Positions 1,642-48,230 of a stretch of DNA of 53,260 nt are shown piece by piece. The translations under genes and the position numbers were made by a program. The notes under the pieces are model-generated. The model was given only the letters and a program-made list of their open reading frames with translations. It did no database searches and was not told where the DNA came from. Source of the stretch: a virus; the IMG/VR virus record IMGVR_UViG_3300031983_000023, positions 1 to 53,260 of that record. One strand, 5' to 3'. Position 1 is the first letter of the stretch, and the number at the start of each line of letters is the position of its first letter.

Positions 1642-3399
1642 CTACGGTATCTCCGAAAGATTCAGGGTCCCCACGGCCGTGATCTCGTCCGCCGCCAGGA
1701 CTATCGGAAACGAGGGCGCGGTTATGGTGGTGTAGTCCACGCCGAACACGAAGACGTCTATATAGCCCAGGGCGTCGGATTCCTGCCTGTCCTTCCCGAA
1801 GTCGGCGCTGTCCAGGTTCGCCACCAGCCTTTCGACCTGGGTATAGTCGGCGGCGTCGAAGCTCGCCGAAAAAATCGAGTTGATCTTTTCCACGGCCCCC
1901 TCGATCCCCCCGCTTTCGTAGGCGGTCGCGATCTCGAACCCGGACTCGGAGAGGAACAGCTGCCAGGCGAGCTCGAAGTAGGGCTCCACGTTCGCGTAGG
2001 TGTACCCCTCCTTGACCTTCGCCGCGGAGGTGACGTTCACCGGCGTTATCGTGGCGGCGAGAAAGCGCGCGTCTATGGACTCCAGGATGCTCCTGTCTAT
2101 CAGGTACGCCTCGATCGCGGCCCTCAGGGCCGGGGACGGGTTGCCTCCCCCGGTGGCCACCCCGACGACCTTGCAGCTCAGGGGGCCGTACTCGTTGCGG
2201 GCCACGCTCACGAGGGAAACCCCCCCGTAGGCCAGGGCCAGCGCCTCCCCGTCCTCCGAGGTGACAAAGCGGTTCCTGGCCTTGAGCAGCAGGGGGGCCA
2301 GCCTCTTGGACACCTCCATGTTCTCCTCGTCGGCTCCGCCCGTCAACGCCGACGGGTTGGACACCCCGTCTATGTCGGAGTCGGTGCCGGCGTAGATATT
2401 CACCTGGCCCACCACGGAAACGTTGCTGTCGTCGCCGCCCCCGGTGGCGTAGGAGACGTACACGCTGAAAGCCTCCGGAATCTTGCCGTAGGTTCCGTTG
2501 CCGAACTGGAGAAGCGCCGAACCGTCGCTGAGAAATACCAGCTTGAAGTCCTTATCATTCGGCAGGGAGTCCACCCAGAAGTCGATTCTTGTCCACGCCT
2601 CGGAGTTGACCACCACGGCGATGGTGGCCTCCAGTATCCCCTTGTGCGCGAGCGCGAACTCCAGCCAGAGGGACTGGCCGTCGGAGTCGCCGGCCACGTA
2701 CTGGTCCACGGTCTCCTGCTGGTAGACGGTTTTCCGGAAGGAGAAGAGCGTTATCGTGTGCGTGCCCGTGCCCTGGGAGGTGATGTCTATGTAGGCCCCG
2801 GCGTAGGCGTACTCGAGGGATTCGGCGAAGCGGATCTCCGTCGCGCTCAGCCTTATCACCCAGTAGTCGGTCGCCAGCGCCAGGCCCCCGGGCAGGGTCC
2901 CGGAGCTCGTCAGTCTCACCAGCTCCCCGGTCAGGAAGTCCCTCGCCAGGTTCGTGAACTTGTCGCTCGCTATGTCCACGTCGGCCGCCGCCTCCGTGTC
3001 GGTCACCTCGCCGACCACCTCCTGGCTTCTTGCCTCGAACCTCTTGGCGGAAATTGCCAGGGAGCCCTGGGTTGTCGCGGCCAGGTCCCCCTGGGAAATC
3101 GTCACGGGAAAGGACACGCCGCGGTCGAGATAGAACAGTATCTCGCCGCTGGAGGGGGAGCGCCCGGCCGGGAAATAGTCCAGCAGGGCGACGAGGTCCG
3201 TGACCGCCCGGCGGGTGAAGGAGGTGCGCAGATAGGCGTTGTTCGCCCCGGCGTTGTTCCACATGGACAGCACGTCCCCGACTCCGGCGACGCACCGCTT
3301 CCACCAGGCCGGCTTGTCCTTCAGCAGCAAATCCGAGTTTATGTCGCCGAGTATGGAGTTGTAGGTCCTCGAGGTGTACTGGATCGGGTTTCCTGCCAT
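1642..3399 (-). CDS. Baseplate J-like protein
   Basis: 585 residues, larger than P2 gpJ (about 300). The baseplate J core is visible around residues 335-420: NPSALTGGADEENMEVSKRL, followed by the VTSEDGEALALAYGGV segment and then VGVATGGGNPSPALR. The N-terminal 300 residues are beta-rich extra domains. In contractile tails this protein forms the wedge ring around the hub. It is flanked by gp25-like and gpI-like genes, the usual order. The family assignment is good; the extra N-terminal domains are not assigned. Confidence 0.85.
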   Translation of the reverse strand: MAGNPIQYTSRTYNSILGDINSDLLLKDKPAWWKRCVAGVGDVLSMWNNAGANNAYLRTSFTRRAVTDLVALLDYFPAGRSPSSGEILFYLDRGVSFPVTISQGDLAATTQGSLAISAKRFEARSQEVVGEVTDTEAAADVDIASDKFTNLARDFLTGELVRLTSSGTLPGGLALATDYWVIRLSATEIRFAESLEYAYAGAYIDITSQGTGTHTITLFSFRKTVYQQETVDQYVAGDSDGQSLWLEFALAHKGILEATIAVVVNSEAWTRIDFWVDSLPNDKDFKLVFLSDGSALLQFGNGTYGKIPEAFSVYVSYATGGGDDSNVSVVGQVNIYAGTDSDIDGVSNPSALTGGADEENMEVSKRLAPLLLKARNRFVTSEDGEALALAYGGVSLVSVARNEYGPLSCKVVGVATGGGNPSPALRAAIEAYLIDRSILESIDARFLAATITPVNVTSAAKVKEGYTYANVEPYFELAWQLFLSESGFEIATAYESGGIEGAVEKINSIFSASFDAADYTQVERLVANLDSADFGKDRQESDALGYIDVFVFGVDYTTITAPSFPIVLAADEITAVGTLNLSEIP

Positions 3400-38842: not shown

Positions 38843-38908
38843 AAAAAAGGGAACCCCCCCGCGGCCCGGAAACCTGCTACGGAATTGAGCGCGGCGGGAT
38901 GAGTTCCC
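38843..38908 (-). terminator. Terminator/attenuator before the initiator-like gene
   Basis: GGGAAC (38908-38903) pairs with GTTCCC (38854-38849), with CCGCGG-type pairing inside, and is followed by six Ts on the minus strand (38848-38843). It would end the M23 peptidase transcript and could attenuate the promoter at 38947-38975. Confidence 0.6.
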
Positions 38909-43053: not shown

Positions 43054-44132
43054 ACCTTGAGCTCCTCTTGCTTTTCCTCCGCCGGTTTCTCCAGAAGCTT
43101 CTTGTCCTCCCCGGCGAAAACCTTGCGGACGAGCTTCTCCGCCTTCCCCTGCAGGTCCTCCCGCCTGGGGACCGCCGGCGGCTTCGCCCCGACCAGCTTG
43201 TAGGCTCTTTCTATTATCCAGCCTATGTGCGGGTGGGCTTCTATCAAGGGCTCCCATCCCTGGCGGTGCGCGGCGGGTTCCCCCTCGGATCCCCCCATGT
43301 GGCAGCCGGTACACAGCCTGATGCGGTTGCGCGGGTCGGTGTTGGACCCCCCGGCCTCGTGCGTGACCACGTGGGCGAGCTGCCCCTCGCCAACCTCGAG
43401 GTGGACGAAACAGGCCTCGCAGTAGTTCACCCGCTCCGTATAGTCCCTGATGGTCTTGTACGCCGCGGGGTCGATCTTCTGCCTTCCCCTCCACCAGGCC
43501 CACTCCCGCCAGTACTTCCGTATCGCTATCGAGGAGTCGAAGCTGATCCCGGTCATGGGCGACAGCTCCCCGAAAATGCCCCCCACCATCTTGCTGAACT
43601 CGGTAGTGTCCATGCTGTGCGACCGCTTGGGGACGAGCGCGAACAAAATCCTGTGCTTGTGCTCCATCCACACGTTCCAGGCGGTCAGGTCGCCGGCCTC
43701 CCAGGAAACTACGCGGTGCACGTGGAAATCGGACGGCCCGATAATCTGCGTCGTTTCGCCGTTGCCGAGCCTGTCCGCCGTGTATAGGTGAGAGTGCTTT
43801 TCCTTTTCCTCTGTCATAGTTTCCCGCTGCAGCTTCGACCGGACTCTCGGCGCGTACCGGAGCAGGATCCCCTCGTGGTACTCCTCCTCGAACCCGAAGG
43901 CGCCCTCCTGCTCGTAGGCGTATATCCGCACCAGCGCCCAATAGAGCCGGTTTTGCCCGGAGGTCCGCCGTGGCTTCCAGAAACCGAAATTCCCCTCCAT
44001 GACGGGATTGCCCCTTCTCCGTATCTCGTTAAACAGGGCCTTCGCCTCCTTGCTGCTGTCGGGCCGCACCTTGAACATTATCACGTCCCTCTTGCCGCTT
44101 TTCAGCGGATCGAGCAGTAGCGACGTCACCAT
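43050..44132 (-). CDS. NinB-like recombination protein fused to an HNH-type zinc domain
   Basis: 360 residues from ATG at 44132 (TGATG). The N-terminal part (FKVRPDSSKEAKALFNEIRR; GNFGFWKPRRTSGQNRLYWA) resembles NinB-like phage recombination proteins. Residues about 250-300 have NYCEACFVHLEVGEGQLAHV, then NTDPRNRIRLCTGCHMGG, an HNH-like zinc fold with CxxC pairs. A direct fusion of NinB-like and HNH parts is unusual. It would handle recombination intermediates. Confidence 0.65.
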   Translation of the reverse strand: MVTSLLLDPLKSGKRDVIMFKVRPDSSKEAKALFNEIRRRGNPVMEGNFGFWKPRRTSGQNRLYWALVRIYAYEQEGAFGFEEEYHEGILLRYAPRVRSKLQRETMTEEKEKHSHLYTADRLGNGETTQIIGPSDFHVHRVVSWEAGDLTAWNVWMEHKHRILFALVPKRSHSMDTTEFSKMVGGIFGELSPMTGISFDSSIAIRKYWREWAWWRGRQKIDPAAYKTIRDYTERVNYCEACFVHLEVGEGQLAHVVTHEAGGSNTDPRNRIRLCTGCHMGGSEGEPAAHRQGWEPLIEAHPHIGWIIERAYKLVGAKPPAVPRREDLQGKAEKLVRKVFAGEDKKLLEKPAEEKQEELKV

Positions 44133-44887
44133 CACTTCACCGCCTTTTCCAGGTCCTTGAGCCGACCCTCCAGCTTCCCCGGATCGTCCATGTCCTTGAT
44201 GCAGTCGTTCCACAGCTCGTTGGCCTCCTCCTGGGACACGATCTTGTCCGCGATCATTTGCTTGATCCTGGCGAATATCTCGTTACCCAGGCCCCTGATG
44301 CGGCTCTCCTTGTCCTCCCCGGGCGTCTTGTCCGCGGCGCCGGACCTGCCGGCGAACCTTTCTTTCCGCTCGCCCTTCTTTTCCTGGAAGCTCCCGAACA
44401 GCTCCTTGATCATAATGTTGATGAACGGTATCCCCACCATCCCCTCCAGGCCCCTCTTGAGGCCCCTGGTCACGGATATGCTCAGGGCGTCGTGGAACTT
44501 CCTTTCCGTGCTTCCCCCCTTCTGCTTCTTGCTCTTCGCCTCCACCTCGCTGGTGGAGCACCCTCCGGACTCCGTTATGTAGTGCTCGGGCTTCTCCCAC
44601 TCCCAGACCCTCACGTCGGAGGCTATGTTGACCACTTCCCCGGTCGTCACGTACTCGTGCCTCACCACTTCGTAGCCGAATCGCCCGACCTTGACGGCCT
44701 TGAGCGAGAAGTTGCGGGTAATCTCCACGTTGCCCTTGATTATGCAGAAGTCCACGTTGTGCTCGTCCTGCCTGAAGTCGAGGACCGGATTCCGGTCCAC
44801 CACCCGCAGCAGCTTCTCGTACAGCTCGATTTCCTGGACGGACAGGATGTCCGCCCTGTCCCTTACGGTAAGCTCGTTTTCTCCCAT
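44132..44887 (-). CDS. Candidate single-strand annealing protein
   Basis: 251 residues. First gene of the recombination operon behind its own promoter, followed by NinB-like, Cas4-like and SMC-like genes. The middle has STSEVEAKSKKQKGGSTERK and DALSISVTRGLKRGLEGMVG, a helix like the 'A.TRA.kRa' element of Rad52/RecT/Erf-type proteins. FCIIKGNVEITRNFSLKAVK and VVNIASDVRVWEWE are beta strands. The assignment as an annealing protein is inference from context and this motif. The C-terminal tail is helical and acidic. Confidence 0.5.
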   Translation of the reverse strand: MGENELTVRDRADILSVQEIELYEKLLRVVDRNPVLDFRQDEHNVDFCIIKGNVEITRNFSLKAVKVGRFGYEVVRHEYVTTGEVVNIASDVRVWEWEKPEHYITESGGCSTSEVEAKSKKQKGGSTERKFHDALSISVTRGLKRGLEGMVGIPFINIMIKELFGSFQEKKGERKERFAGRSGAADKTPGEDKESRIRGLGNEIFARIKQMIADKIVSQEEANELWNDCIKDMDDPGKLEGRLKDLEKAVK

Positions 44888-44916
44888 GCTCTCCTCCTCG
44901 AAAGAAAAATCCCCTT

Positions 44917-44945
44917 ATTATACACTATTTTTTTGTCCTTAGCAA
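44917..44945 (-). promoter_or_regulatory. Promoter of the recombination operon
   Basis: Minus strand TTGCTA (44945-44940), 17-base spacer, TATAAT (44922-44917). The start would be near 44910, 23 bases before the annealing-protein ATG, with GAGGAGGAGAG between. Back-to-back with a plus-strand promoter. Confidence 0.8.
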
Positions 44946-44949
44946 GGCC

Positions 44950-44978
44950 TTGACAGGAAAACCCTCGGCGGATACTAT
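44950..44978 (+). promoter_or_regulatory. Plus-strand promoter facing away from the operon
   Basis: TTGACA (44950-44955), 17-base spacer, TACTAT (44973-44978). This near-consensus sigma-70 promoter is the only good plus-strand one I found, and it faces a stretch with no plus-strand gene. It would start a short transcript at about 44985. Confidence 0.7.
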
Positions 44979-44984
44979 TGCCGC

Positions 44985-45060
44985 ATCGAGGGCTCTCCTC
45001 TCGAAAAAAAGGGATCTCGACCGCACCCTTCCCAGTCTGCGGCGAGACCCCTTCTATTTT
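44985..45060 (+). ncRNA. Candidate small RNA with anti-Shine-Dalgarno loop
   Basis: Predicted start is just after the plus promoter. The first structure is a hairpin, UCGAG (44986-44990) with CUCGA (45000-45004), whose loop GGCUCUCCU holds CUCUCCU, complementary to the AGGAGAG ribosome sites used across this genome. A second GC-rich hairpin (45011-45051) with a UUCUAUUUUU tail would end it. The RNA would be about 76 bases. All parts are read from sequence; expression is inferred. Confidence 0.5.
45004..45051 (-). terminator. Bidirectional terminator after the DUF932 gene
   Basis: Arms GGGATCTCGACCGCA and TGCGGCGAGACCCC (plus strand, small bulges) form a stem. On the minus strand it is followed by seven Ts, and on the plus strand by CTTCTATTTTT. 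It ends the DUF932 transcript and the plus-strand RNA. Confidence 0.75.
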
Positions 45061-46095
45061 TCAGTCCACCAGCTCGGCCCATTCCTTCGCGTCCCCGGTC
45101 AGAACCTTGAACCCGATCTTCTCCAGGTCGTACTGCCGGTTGCGGTCCTCGAGGCCCTTCGCCATGGCCGTGATGCTCTGGCCCAGACCGTAGCGGGAGA
45201 AATCCTTGTCCCTTGCCATGCCCGCGATCAGTTCCTCGCCGGCCTTCTCCGAAAGGTCGTACTTTTTCCCCACCCTCTCGACCGTCTTTACGGGGTCCTC
45301 GATCTCATCCCCCTTCGCCCTCCGCATCTTGTTCACGGTCTGCTGGAAACCGGCGTCGGTGATCGCGAAGGACACCACGTCGCGGGTCCGCAGGCGGAAG
45401 CTCTCCAGCTCGGCCCTGATGGTGTCGTCCCTGTAGATGTTGTAGTCCTCCTCCAGCTCGCCGACCTTCCGGCCGACGTGCACCTTCCGGAGGACGCTCG
45501 CCCCGATGGCGCCGTTCTCGCACCACAGCCGCCAGATCAGCTCCTCCACCTCGTAGGAGCCCGCGCCTACCTCGCTGTTGCGGAACGTCAGCCCGGCCTG
45601 AACCACGTCCCCCACGGACACCTGCTCCTGCACCTTCGGAAAGACCACCTGCAGGTACATGCGGGTGTCGGTCAGCGTCGAGCTCACGACTTTCACCTCG
45701 TGCTCCTGGAGCGCCGGCAGGATCGCCCGCATCATCAGCCCGTTGTCGAGCGGCTTGAACTTGTCGCTCACCACCGCCCTGGCCGTCCCCTCCAGGGTCC
45801 GCACCAGCCTTCTCTCGTCCGGCCTCTTCCGCAGCAAGGCGTTGACGTTCAGCGCCCGGAGCTCCTCGACAGAGCCGATCCTGTCATAGTAGGCCCTGGG
45901 GATCTTGAGGTACTCGGCCAGCTGCCCGTGGGCGTACTGGTTGAGCGGATAATCCCCCTCCCCGTCGATTGCCAGCGTCCTGTTGTCGCCGACCATCCTC
46001 ATGCGACTGCCGGGCACGAGGAAATCGTCCTTCTGTTCCTCGAGCCTCTCCACCTCCGCCGCCAGGGCGGATATGCTCCCGAAGTTCCCGTTCAT
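45061..46095 (-). CDS. DUF932-type phage/plasmid-like protein
   Basis: 344 residues. DUF932 signs: YPLNQYAHGQLAEYLKIPRA, then ALNVNALLRKRPDERRLVRT and GTARAVVSDKFKPLDNGLMM. The family is common in phages and plasmids with no settled function; links to DNA or RNA handling are suggested by context only. It is a single-gene unit between two terminators. SD GGAGGG lies upstream of 46095. Confidence 0.75.
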   Translation of the reverse strand: MNGNFGSISALAAEVERLEEQKDDFLVPGSRMRMVGDNRTLAIDGEGDYPLNQYAHGQLAEYLKIPRAYYDRIGSVEELRALNVNALLRKRPDERRLVRTLEGTARAVVSDKFKPLDNGLMMRAILPALQEHEVKVVSSTLTDTRMYLQVVFPKVQEQVSVGDVVQAGLTFRNSEVGAGSYEVEELIWRLWCENGAIGASVLRKVHVGRKVGELEEDYNIYRDDTIRAELESFRLRTRDVVSFAITDAGFQQTVNKMRRAKGDEIEDPVKTVERVGKKYDLSEKAGEELIAGMARDKDFSRYGLGQSITAMAKGLEDRNRQYDLEKIGFKVLTGDAKEWAELVD

Positions 46096-46145: not shown

Positions 46146-46171
46146 TCGAGGGCGGGAATCGAGCCCGCCAG
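46146..46171 (-). other. T-arm-like hairpin in leader region
   Basis: GGCGGG-CTCGATT-CCCGCC on the minus strand imitates a tRNA T-arm, but no acceptor or anticodon arms fit. It lies between a terminator and the DUF932 gene, as part of its leader. Confidence 0.4.
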
Positions 46172-46195: not shown

Positions 46196-46247
46196 AAAAA
46201 AAGGGAGTCCGCTCAGGGGAAGCCTGGGGGCTTCCCTGAGCGATCCC
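46196..46247 (-). terminator. Intrinsic terminator of the early small-gene operon
   Basis: Plus-strand GCTCAGGGGAAGCC (46211-46224) pairs with GGCTTCCCTGAGC (46229-46241), with a GGGA/TCCC extension, followed on the minus strand by seven Ts (46202-46196). The region 46096-46317 otherwise holds the T-arm-like hairpin and a GGCGCGTTGCGCC stem, and no gene. Confidence 0.85.
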
Positions 46248-47582: not shown

Positions 47583-48116
47583 CTACTTCGCCAGGTTCTC
47601 CCGGAGGAACTTGACCTCCTCGTCGGTCAGCGCAACTCCGGCTGCGGCCTTCGCAGTCACGACCTCGGCCATGGAGAACTCCTTGAGCGTATTCCTGATG
47701 ATGCTTTCCATAAAATCGAACTGGTCAGTTCCCGAAAGTGCCGCGGGCGGCTCCCGCACCACCACGAATGCTCTTGCCATCCTCTCGCGGAACTCGGCCG
47801 CAGCCTTCTGGAAGGCCATGTTCACGGTGAGCGCCTCGTCCACCTTGTCCCGGAGCACCTTGATCTCCAGCTCCAGCTCCCCGACTTGCTTTCCCTTTTC
47901 CATCGCCTTCTCCACGTCCGTTTCGTGGAAGATCGGGAAATCGTCCTTGATGTTCTGCACCATCAATTCCACCTCGTCCTCGTTGAATTGTTCGTGGAAG
48001 TACGTGTCGCCCGCCCCCAGCTTCTCGATCGCCAGCATCTCCAGGGCTTTGTCCCAGTCCTCGAGCTCCATTTTCGCCAGCGCCTTTGTCAGATCCTCGT
48101 GATGTTTTTTTACCAT
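47583..48116 (-). CDS. Early protein, helical, unknown
   Basis: 177 residues from ATG at 48116 (GAGAGGAGA upstream). Acidic and helical, coiled-coil-like at residues 75-110 (GELELEIKVLRDKVDEAL). First gene of the early operon behind the 48420-48449 promoter and the tRNA-like element. No motif. Confidence 0.6.
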   Translation of the reverse strand: MVKKHHEDLTKALAKMELEDWDKALEMLAIEKLGAGDTYFHEQFNEDEVELMVQNIKDDFPIFHETDVEKAMEKGKQVGELELEIKVLRDKVDEALTVNMAFQKAAAEFRERMARAFVVVREPPAALSGTDQFDFMESIIRNTLKEFSMAEVVTAKAAAGVALTDEEVKFLRENLAK

Positions 48117-48157
48117 GTCGGTCTCCTCTCGCGTTTTACGCCCGCCGGCGGATTTTC

Positions 48158-48230
48158 TGGAGAAGGCGGGAATCGAACCCGCCGCAGTCTGCTTGCAAAG
48201 CAATCTCGCCACCTTGGAACATGCTCCCCC
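48158..48230 (-). tRNA. tRNA-Ala(UGC)-like gene, degenerate D-arm
   Basis: Exactly 73 bases fit a tRNA. Acceptor GGGGGAG pairs with CTTCTCC and has a G3-U70 wobble, the alanine identity pair, and A73. T-arm GCGGG-TTCGATT-CCCGC is perfect. Anticodon loop TTTGCAA gives anticodon TGC with a partly paired stem. Weaknesses: base 8 is C and the D-stem pairs poorly. It may be a decayed or unusual tRNA. It lies in the leader between the early promoter and the first early gene. Confidence 0.55.

Follow-up and report, generated by a model that had tools for sequence, protein, structure and literature searches.

A putative short antisense RNA with a Shine-Dalgarno-complementary 5' hairpin beside a DUF932-like phage gene

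A plus-strand promoter in a gap between two leftward operons

What could a consensus plus-strand promoter do between two phage genes that both run leftward? We addressed this question in the window, a linear virus contig of 53,260 bases (62% GC), whose minus strand carries nearly all of its genes. A gap of 173 nt (44888-45060) separates a DUF932-like gene from the next leftward gene, for which searches found no family (Table 1). A sequence-only reading had placed back-to-back promoters here and had proposed that the plus-strand promoter drives a small anti-Shine-Dalgarno (anti-SD) RNA that turns down early translation globally. Both promoters are indeed present, facing away from each other, and no credible plus-strand gene was found past the plus-strand promoter, as that reading had stated.

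Table 1. Features of the gap and its flanking genes in the window
Feature	Position	Strand	Details
Next leftward gene	44132-44887	-	family search without match
Promoter TTGCTA-17-TATAAT of next leftward operon	44917-44945 (read 44945-44917)	-	
Palindrome CAAGGCCTTG at both -35 boxes	44943-44952		single copy in window
Sigma-70-type promoter TTGACA-17-TACTAT	44950-44978	+	predicted +1, A44985
T2, second hairpin	44953-45000	-	AGGAGAGCCCUCG...CGAGGGUUUUCCU
SD-like CGAGAGGAGAG, 6 nt, ATG CGG CAA TAG (three-codon ORF)	44975-45003	-	
Predicted short RNA, ~76 nt	44985-~45061	+	antisense to DUF932 mRNA 3' UTR/terminator
5' hairpin of predicted RNA	44986-45004	+	UCGAGGG-CUCUC-CUCUCGA
CUCUCCU	44993-44999	+	complement of phage SD AGGAGAG; part loop, part stem
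T1 (same terminator as next row, read on -)	45004-45052	-	stem with U7 behind it; z -5.2
Bidirectional intrinsic terminator, read on +	45011-45061	+	hairpin then UUCUAUUUUU
DUF932-like gene (phrog_1362)	45061-46095	-	profile match, E 1.4e-50

On the plus strand, the promoter is followed by the likely start, the 5' hairpin, seven A residues, the T1 stem, and UUCUAUUUUU, which extends to 45061. On the minus strand, the order is the DUF932 stop codon, T1, CGAGAGGAGAG-CCCTCG-ATG CGG CAA TAG, T2, the leftward promoter, and the SD of the next gene. The earlier reading had missed that the minus strand thus carries a canonical SD plus ATG, a stretch that doubles as the left arm of T2. The T2 hairpin folds at -31.5 kcal/mol on the minus strand versus -20.3 kcal/mol on the plus strand, and none of 500 shuffled sequences was as good as -31.5. 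From the palindrome shared by both -35 boxes, we infer a possible operator.

Promoter-like sites scoring at least 10/12 number seven on the two strands of the window, two of them on the plus strand (0.3 expected per strand), and shuffling of the 173-nt gap gave a chance of 0.004 for such a site on one strand. When a unit was defined as a site of this score with a terminator 35 to 115 nt downstream, the predicted unit at 44985 was the sole one on both strands of the 53-kb window at these thresholds; the other fetched loci contained 18 units in 1,963 strand-kb.

The plus-strand promoter would thus produce an RNA of ~76 nt ending at the back of the DUF932 terminator. The predicted RNA (44985-45062) has a computed folding energy of -31.8 kcal/mol (z -4.4), and neither the window nor 20 relatives yielded an Rfam match at the gathering score. 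The terminator lies about 76 bases on, as had been claimed, but it is bidirectional and also ends the DUF932 mRNA on the minus strand, where its better U-tract (U7) is found. The DUF932-like stop codon adjoins the end of the plus-strand terminator, so that the predicted RNA, with its U-tract ending at 45061, reaches no more than 1 nt into the coding sequence. In our judgment, this short antisense RNA, a predicted plus-strand transcript, is probably real.

The first 20 bases would form a hairpin (13 of 1,000 shuffles fold equally well), whose loop and 3' arm are complementary to the ribosome-binding consensus GAGAGGAGAGC of the same phage. The hairpin had been described with the loop CUCUCCU; the hairpin itself holds, but in the fold of lowest energy the loop consists of CUCUC and the final CU is paired (the last two bases are unpaired with probabilities of 0.01 and 0.18).

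Complementarity to SD sequences and computed pairing

The AGGAGAG motif, said to precede a dozen or more early genes, occurs in 20 copies on the minus strand of the window, about 11 of them before genes, and it was found in 11 ribosome-binding sites (RBSs); the gene at 48116, which had been listed among them, has AGGAGAC instead. AGGAGAG precedes many genes at 25 to 48 kb and none of the 10 genes inspected below 25 kb. The longer GAGAGGAGAG has seven copies in the window, all on the minus strand, of which six are gene SDs; the proposed loop is complementary to the seventh. Since only 0.3 to 0.6 copies are expected per 25 kb by chance, this seventh site is not random. Read on the minus strand, however, the "anti-SD" of the predicted RNA is exactly a canonical phage SD with an ATG behind it, and its complementarity to other SDs is therefore not independent evidence of anti-SD function; given this textbook SD and ATG, the sequence of the loop may be a minus-strand feature. 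In addition, the plus strand is pyrimidine rich across the whole region around the predicted RNA.

Computed pairing with the ribosome sites, which the sequence-only reading had named as a check, did not favor the predicted RNA. Duplex energies calculated without self-structure (mean of -19.2 kcal/mol) were dropped as evidence because antisense copies of ordinary RBSs do equally well (-10.8 to -21.4 kcal/mol). When the RNA's own fold was included, the mean net pairing energy was -9.75, compared with -10.8 (sd 2.1) for 60 shuffled heads, of which 39 were as good as the predicted RNA. The net pairing gain was larger on early RBSs than on late RBSs (-4.9). A global damping of early translation is not supported, as the complementarity is that of any SD antisense and net pairing equals that of shuffles here and is worse in a diverged phage (L051; 24 of 25 shuffles better).

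A similar layout in a diverged phage

L051 encodes a DUF932 protein about 42% identical to that of the window and formed its own cluster at every threshold tried. Its antisense strand reads TTGACT-17-TACTAT-AGATC-CAT-GTCGGC-UACCCC-GCCGAC, followed by another loop, UUACCCC, and then a terminator, and the unit ends 23 nt from the DUF932 stop codon. The window counterpart is TTGACA-17-TACTAT-TGCCG-CAT-CGAGGG-CUCUC-CUCUCG. Both phages therefore have TTGACW-17-TACTAT, N5-CAT, a hairpin with a CU-rich loop, and a terminator. In L051, the terminator has a U-tract in the antisense direction only; there is no clear DNA similarity between the two units. When the fetched loci were scanned for a promoter, a spacer, CAT, and a hairpin, TACTAT, a 6-bp stem right after CAT, and a CU-rich loop occurred together only in the window and L051; this layout was recognized post hoc in L051 and concerns two phages. 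Searching 32 records for the layout pattern returned a 2.4-Mb bacterial genome, L051, L050, and G007; the L050 match was rejected as an ordinary promoter with a hairpin ahead of an RBS.

The loops differ between the two phages in the same direction as their SDs. L051 often uses the SD flavor AGGGGGTA, and both of its loops contain UACCCC and match its own SDs rather than those of the window. According to RBS calls that are approximate, GCUCUCCU ranked best of 280 permutations on the 87 RBSs of the window, and UACCCC ranked best of 30 permutations on the 50 RBSs of L051, whereas the window loop fitted none of these 50 RBSs and the loop of L051 was unremarkable on the RBSs of the window. Each loop thus ranks best on the RBSs of its own phage, so the difference in the loop is accompanied by one in the ribosome sites. 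The sequence-only reading had held that a loop varying among relatives with constant ribosome sites would count against it; L051 shows the opposite pattern, with a similar promoter and layout, but the close DUF932 relatives L047, L049, and L050 contained no clear unit.

Read on the sense strand, both phages have an SD within a hairpin loop and, about 6 nt further on, an ATG, two more codons, and a TAG complementary to the -10 box. A minigene on this strand would account for the ATG but not for the matching antisense promoters, the antisense-only terminator, or the second SD-complementary loop of L051, behind which the sense strand has no start codon. An antisense RNA explains both promoters, that terminator, and the second loop. 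The CAT after the promoter may be merely a "CA" start site, and a hybrid, in which an antisense RNA is aimed at a tiny translated leader, may also apply.

Relatives and antisense units downstream of DUF932 genes

Neither the DUF932 gene nor the gene at 44132 used as a single query retrieved close relatives, and a terminase query retrieved diverged relatives only (best identity, 49%); the fetched relatives are at best 45 to 49% identical in terminase or DUF932. An exact 18-mer search of IMG/VR and a DNA similarity search in phages gave no match, and an intergenic alignment of the window, L051, L047, and L050 revealed no clear common sequence.

Among 69 DUF932 loci, antisense promoter-like sites past the stop codon exceeded expectation (18 versus 9.0 at 9/12; 6 versus 1.4 at 10/12). 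Within 400 nt downstream, 9 of 112 nonidentical loci had an antisense unit (about 1 expected) and none had a sense unit. These include few independent lineages, since five of the clear units (L061, L072, L073, L082, and L088) belong to one large cluster. Together with L066, these five form a gut-phage group with an antisense promoter and a predicted RNA of about 50 to 65 nt near DUF932, within or adjoining a small zinc-ribbon ORF. Their units have a common terminator hairpin with a CCCG...TGC...CGGG core and no Rfam match at the gathering score. The terminator hairpin of the window has CCGCACCCTTCCCAGTCTGCGG in place of this core, and homology between the two was rejected for this reason; the zinc-ribbon units are not members of the same RNA.

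Several other elements were observed. A tRNA/tmRNA-like element (GGGGGAG...GGCGGGTTCGATTCCCGCCTTCTCCA; 48155-48230, minus strand) lies downstream of a strong promoter (48449-48420) and scored 21.3 bits against Rfam tmRNA (gathering score, 47; E 7.7e-6 in a 3.9-kb search), and ARAGORN called no gene there. A T-arm-like hairpin, GGCGGGCTCGATTCCCGCC, is located at 46154-46166 (minus strand), shortly past a terminator at 46202, and L050 has the similar GCCAGTGGGTTCGACTCCCACTGGC just past its DUF932 stop codon. At 38848 and 39600 (minus strand), the SD and start of the next gene come directly after intrinsic terminators with U6, an arrangement that suggests control by readthrough or antitermination. 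In L044, TGAGTC...GACTCA-type hairpins directly precede the SDs of at least two genes (1380-1410 and 3240-3300).

Discussion

Taking the shared layout and the matching loops together, we consider an antisense RNA that contacts SDs to be the best single mechanism, with a probability of roughly 0.4, ahead of the two alternatives weighed below. The predicted RNA would reach the phage's SD-type translation starts through its hairpin loop; its complementarity to the DUF932 mRNA 3' end is complete as well. Transcription, target binding, and an effect on translation are steps that we infer, and function of the SD mimicry itself is possible rather than proven. Of the original anti-SD proposal, what survives is a likely short RNA, in view of the unique unit and the recurrence of antisense units at the DUF932 flank, and a second phage whose loop fits its own SDs; the SD complementarity has a trivial component.

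The locus could instead be ordinary punctuation between leftward operons, consisting of T1, T2, and a promoter, with AGGAGAG as the SD of a relic or of the three-codon minigene and the plus-strand promoter as a weak or chance match. Such a layout accords with the strand bias of GAGAGGAGAG (all seven copies on the minus strand, the other six before genes), with the ATG located 6 nt past the copy in the gap, with the far greater strength of T2 on the minus strand, and with the terminators at 38848 and 39600 that also have an SD close behind. It is nevertheless somewhat improbable, given the low local chance of the plus-strand promoter, the uniqueness of the unit in the window, and the repetition in L051 of promoter, hairpin, and antisense-only terminator, along with a second SD-complementary loop lacking a sense-strand start codon.

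We regard as unlikely a local, OOP-like action in which the predicted RNA affects the 3' end of the DUF932 mRNA, via a duplex of about 58 nt over the 3' UTR and terminator, or acts by promoter interference, the SD match being a by-product. In position, orientation, length, and a terminator beside the stop codon, the unit resembles lambda OOP, and antisense units are concentrated in the 3' flank of DUF932, including in the gut-phage group with its different hairpin core. However, the tie to DUF932 is loose, because the gut-group unit lies within a zinc-ribbon ORF and that of L066 is about 400 nt away, and the match of both loops to the SDs of their own phages would be left unexplained. Lambda OOP extends between pO and tO and shares 52 bases with cII (PMC5869508). 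Like the predicted unit of the window, OOP is a short antisense transcript between two phage genes that has its own promoter and terminates intrinsically where the upstream gene ends (PMC5869508); a further mark of OOP-type antisense RNAs is RNase III-dependent decay of the target mRNA. At the sequence level, the window has this promoter and terminator opposite its flanking genes, but it would extend into the coding region of its target gene by at most 1 nt rather than 52, the genes are unrelated, and the SD complement lies in a 5' hairpin.

Other comparisons concern the SD-contacting RNA. The Firmicutes sRNAs LhrC and RsaE have an unpaired CU-rich (UCCC) motif complementary to SDs, stem-loops, and a terminator (PMC4132741). 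The predicted RNA also has stem-loops and a terminator, and its CU-rich, SD-complementary motif is in part exposed, with CUCUC unpaired and the next CU paired, but it is phage encoded, has CUCUC(CU) rather than UCCC in its loop, fits an extended, phage-specific SD, and lacks an Rfam match; pairing with targets better than chance, a trait of CU-rich anti-SD sRNAs, was not found in the window. The c4 antisense RNA of P1/P7 likewise has loops complementary to a ribosome-binding region and acts on one mRNA, ant (PMC12197685). In contrast, many SDs match the predicted RNA of the window, which is also antisense to a 3' UTR.

A broader generalization, rather doubtful on present sequences, would be that a group of phages keeps antisense RNAs beside DUF932, each with a 5' loop complementary to the SD "dialect" of its own phage and damping a phage-wide set of translation starts, and that the loop evolves with the ribosome-binding sites. 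The phage RNAs known to contact ribosome-binding regions, such as c4 (PMC12197685), each target one or a few mRNAs. Should SD targeting fail, the locus still illustrates that the antisense of any SD resembles an anti-SD RNA. If true, targeting would explain why GAGAGGAGAGC, whose last bases are dispensable for 16S pairing, is common to many early genes, and an RNA directed against the SD dialect of the whole early gene set would provide a simple posttranscriptional shutoff of a gene class.
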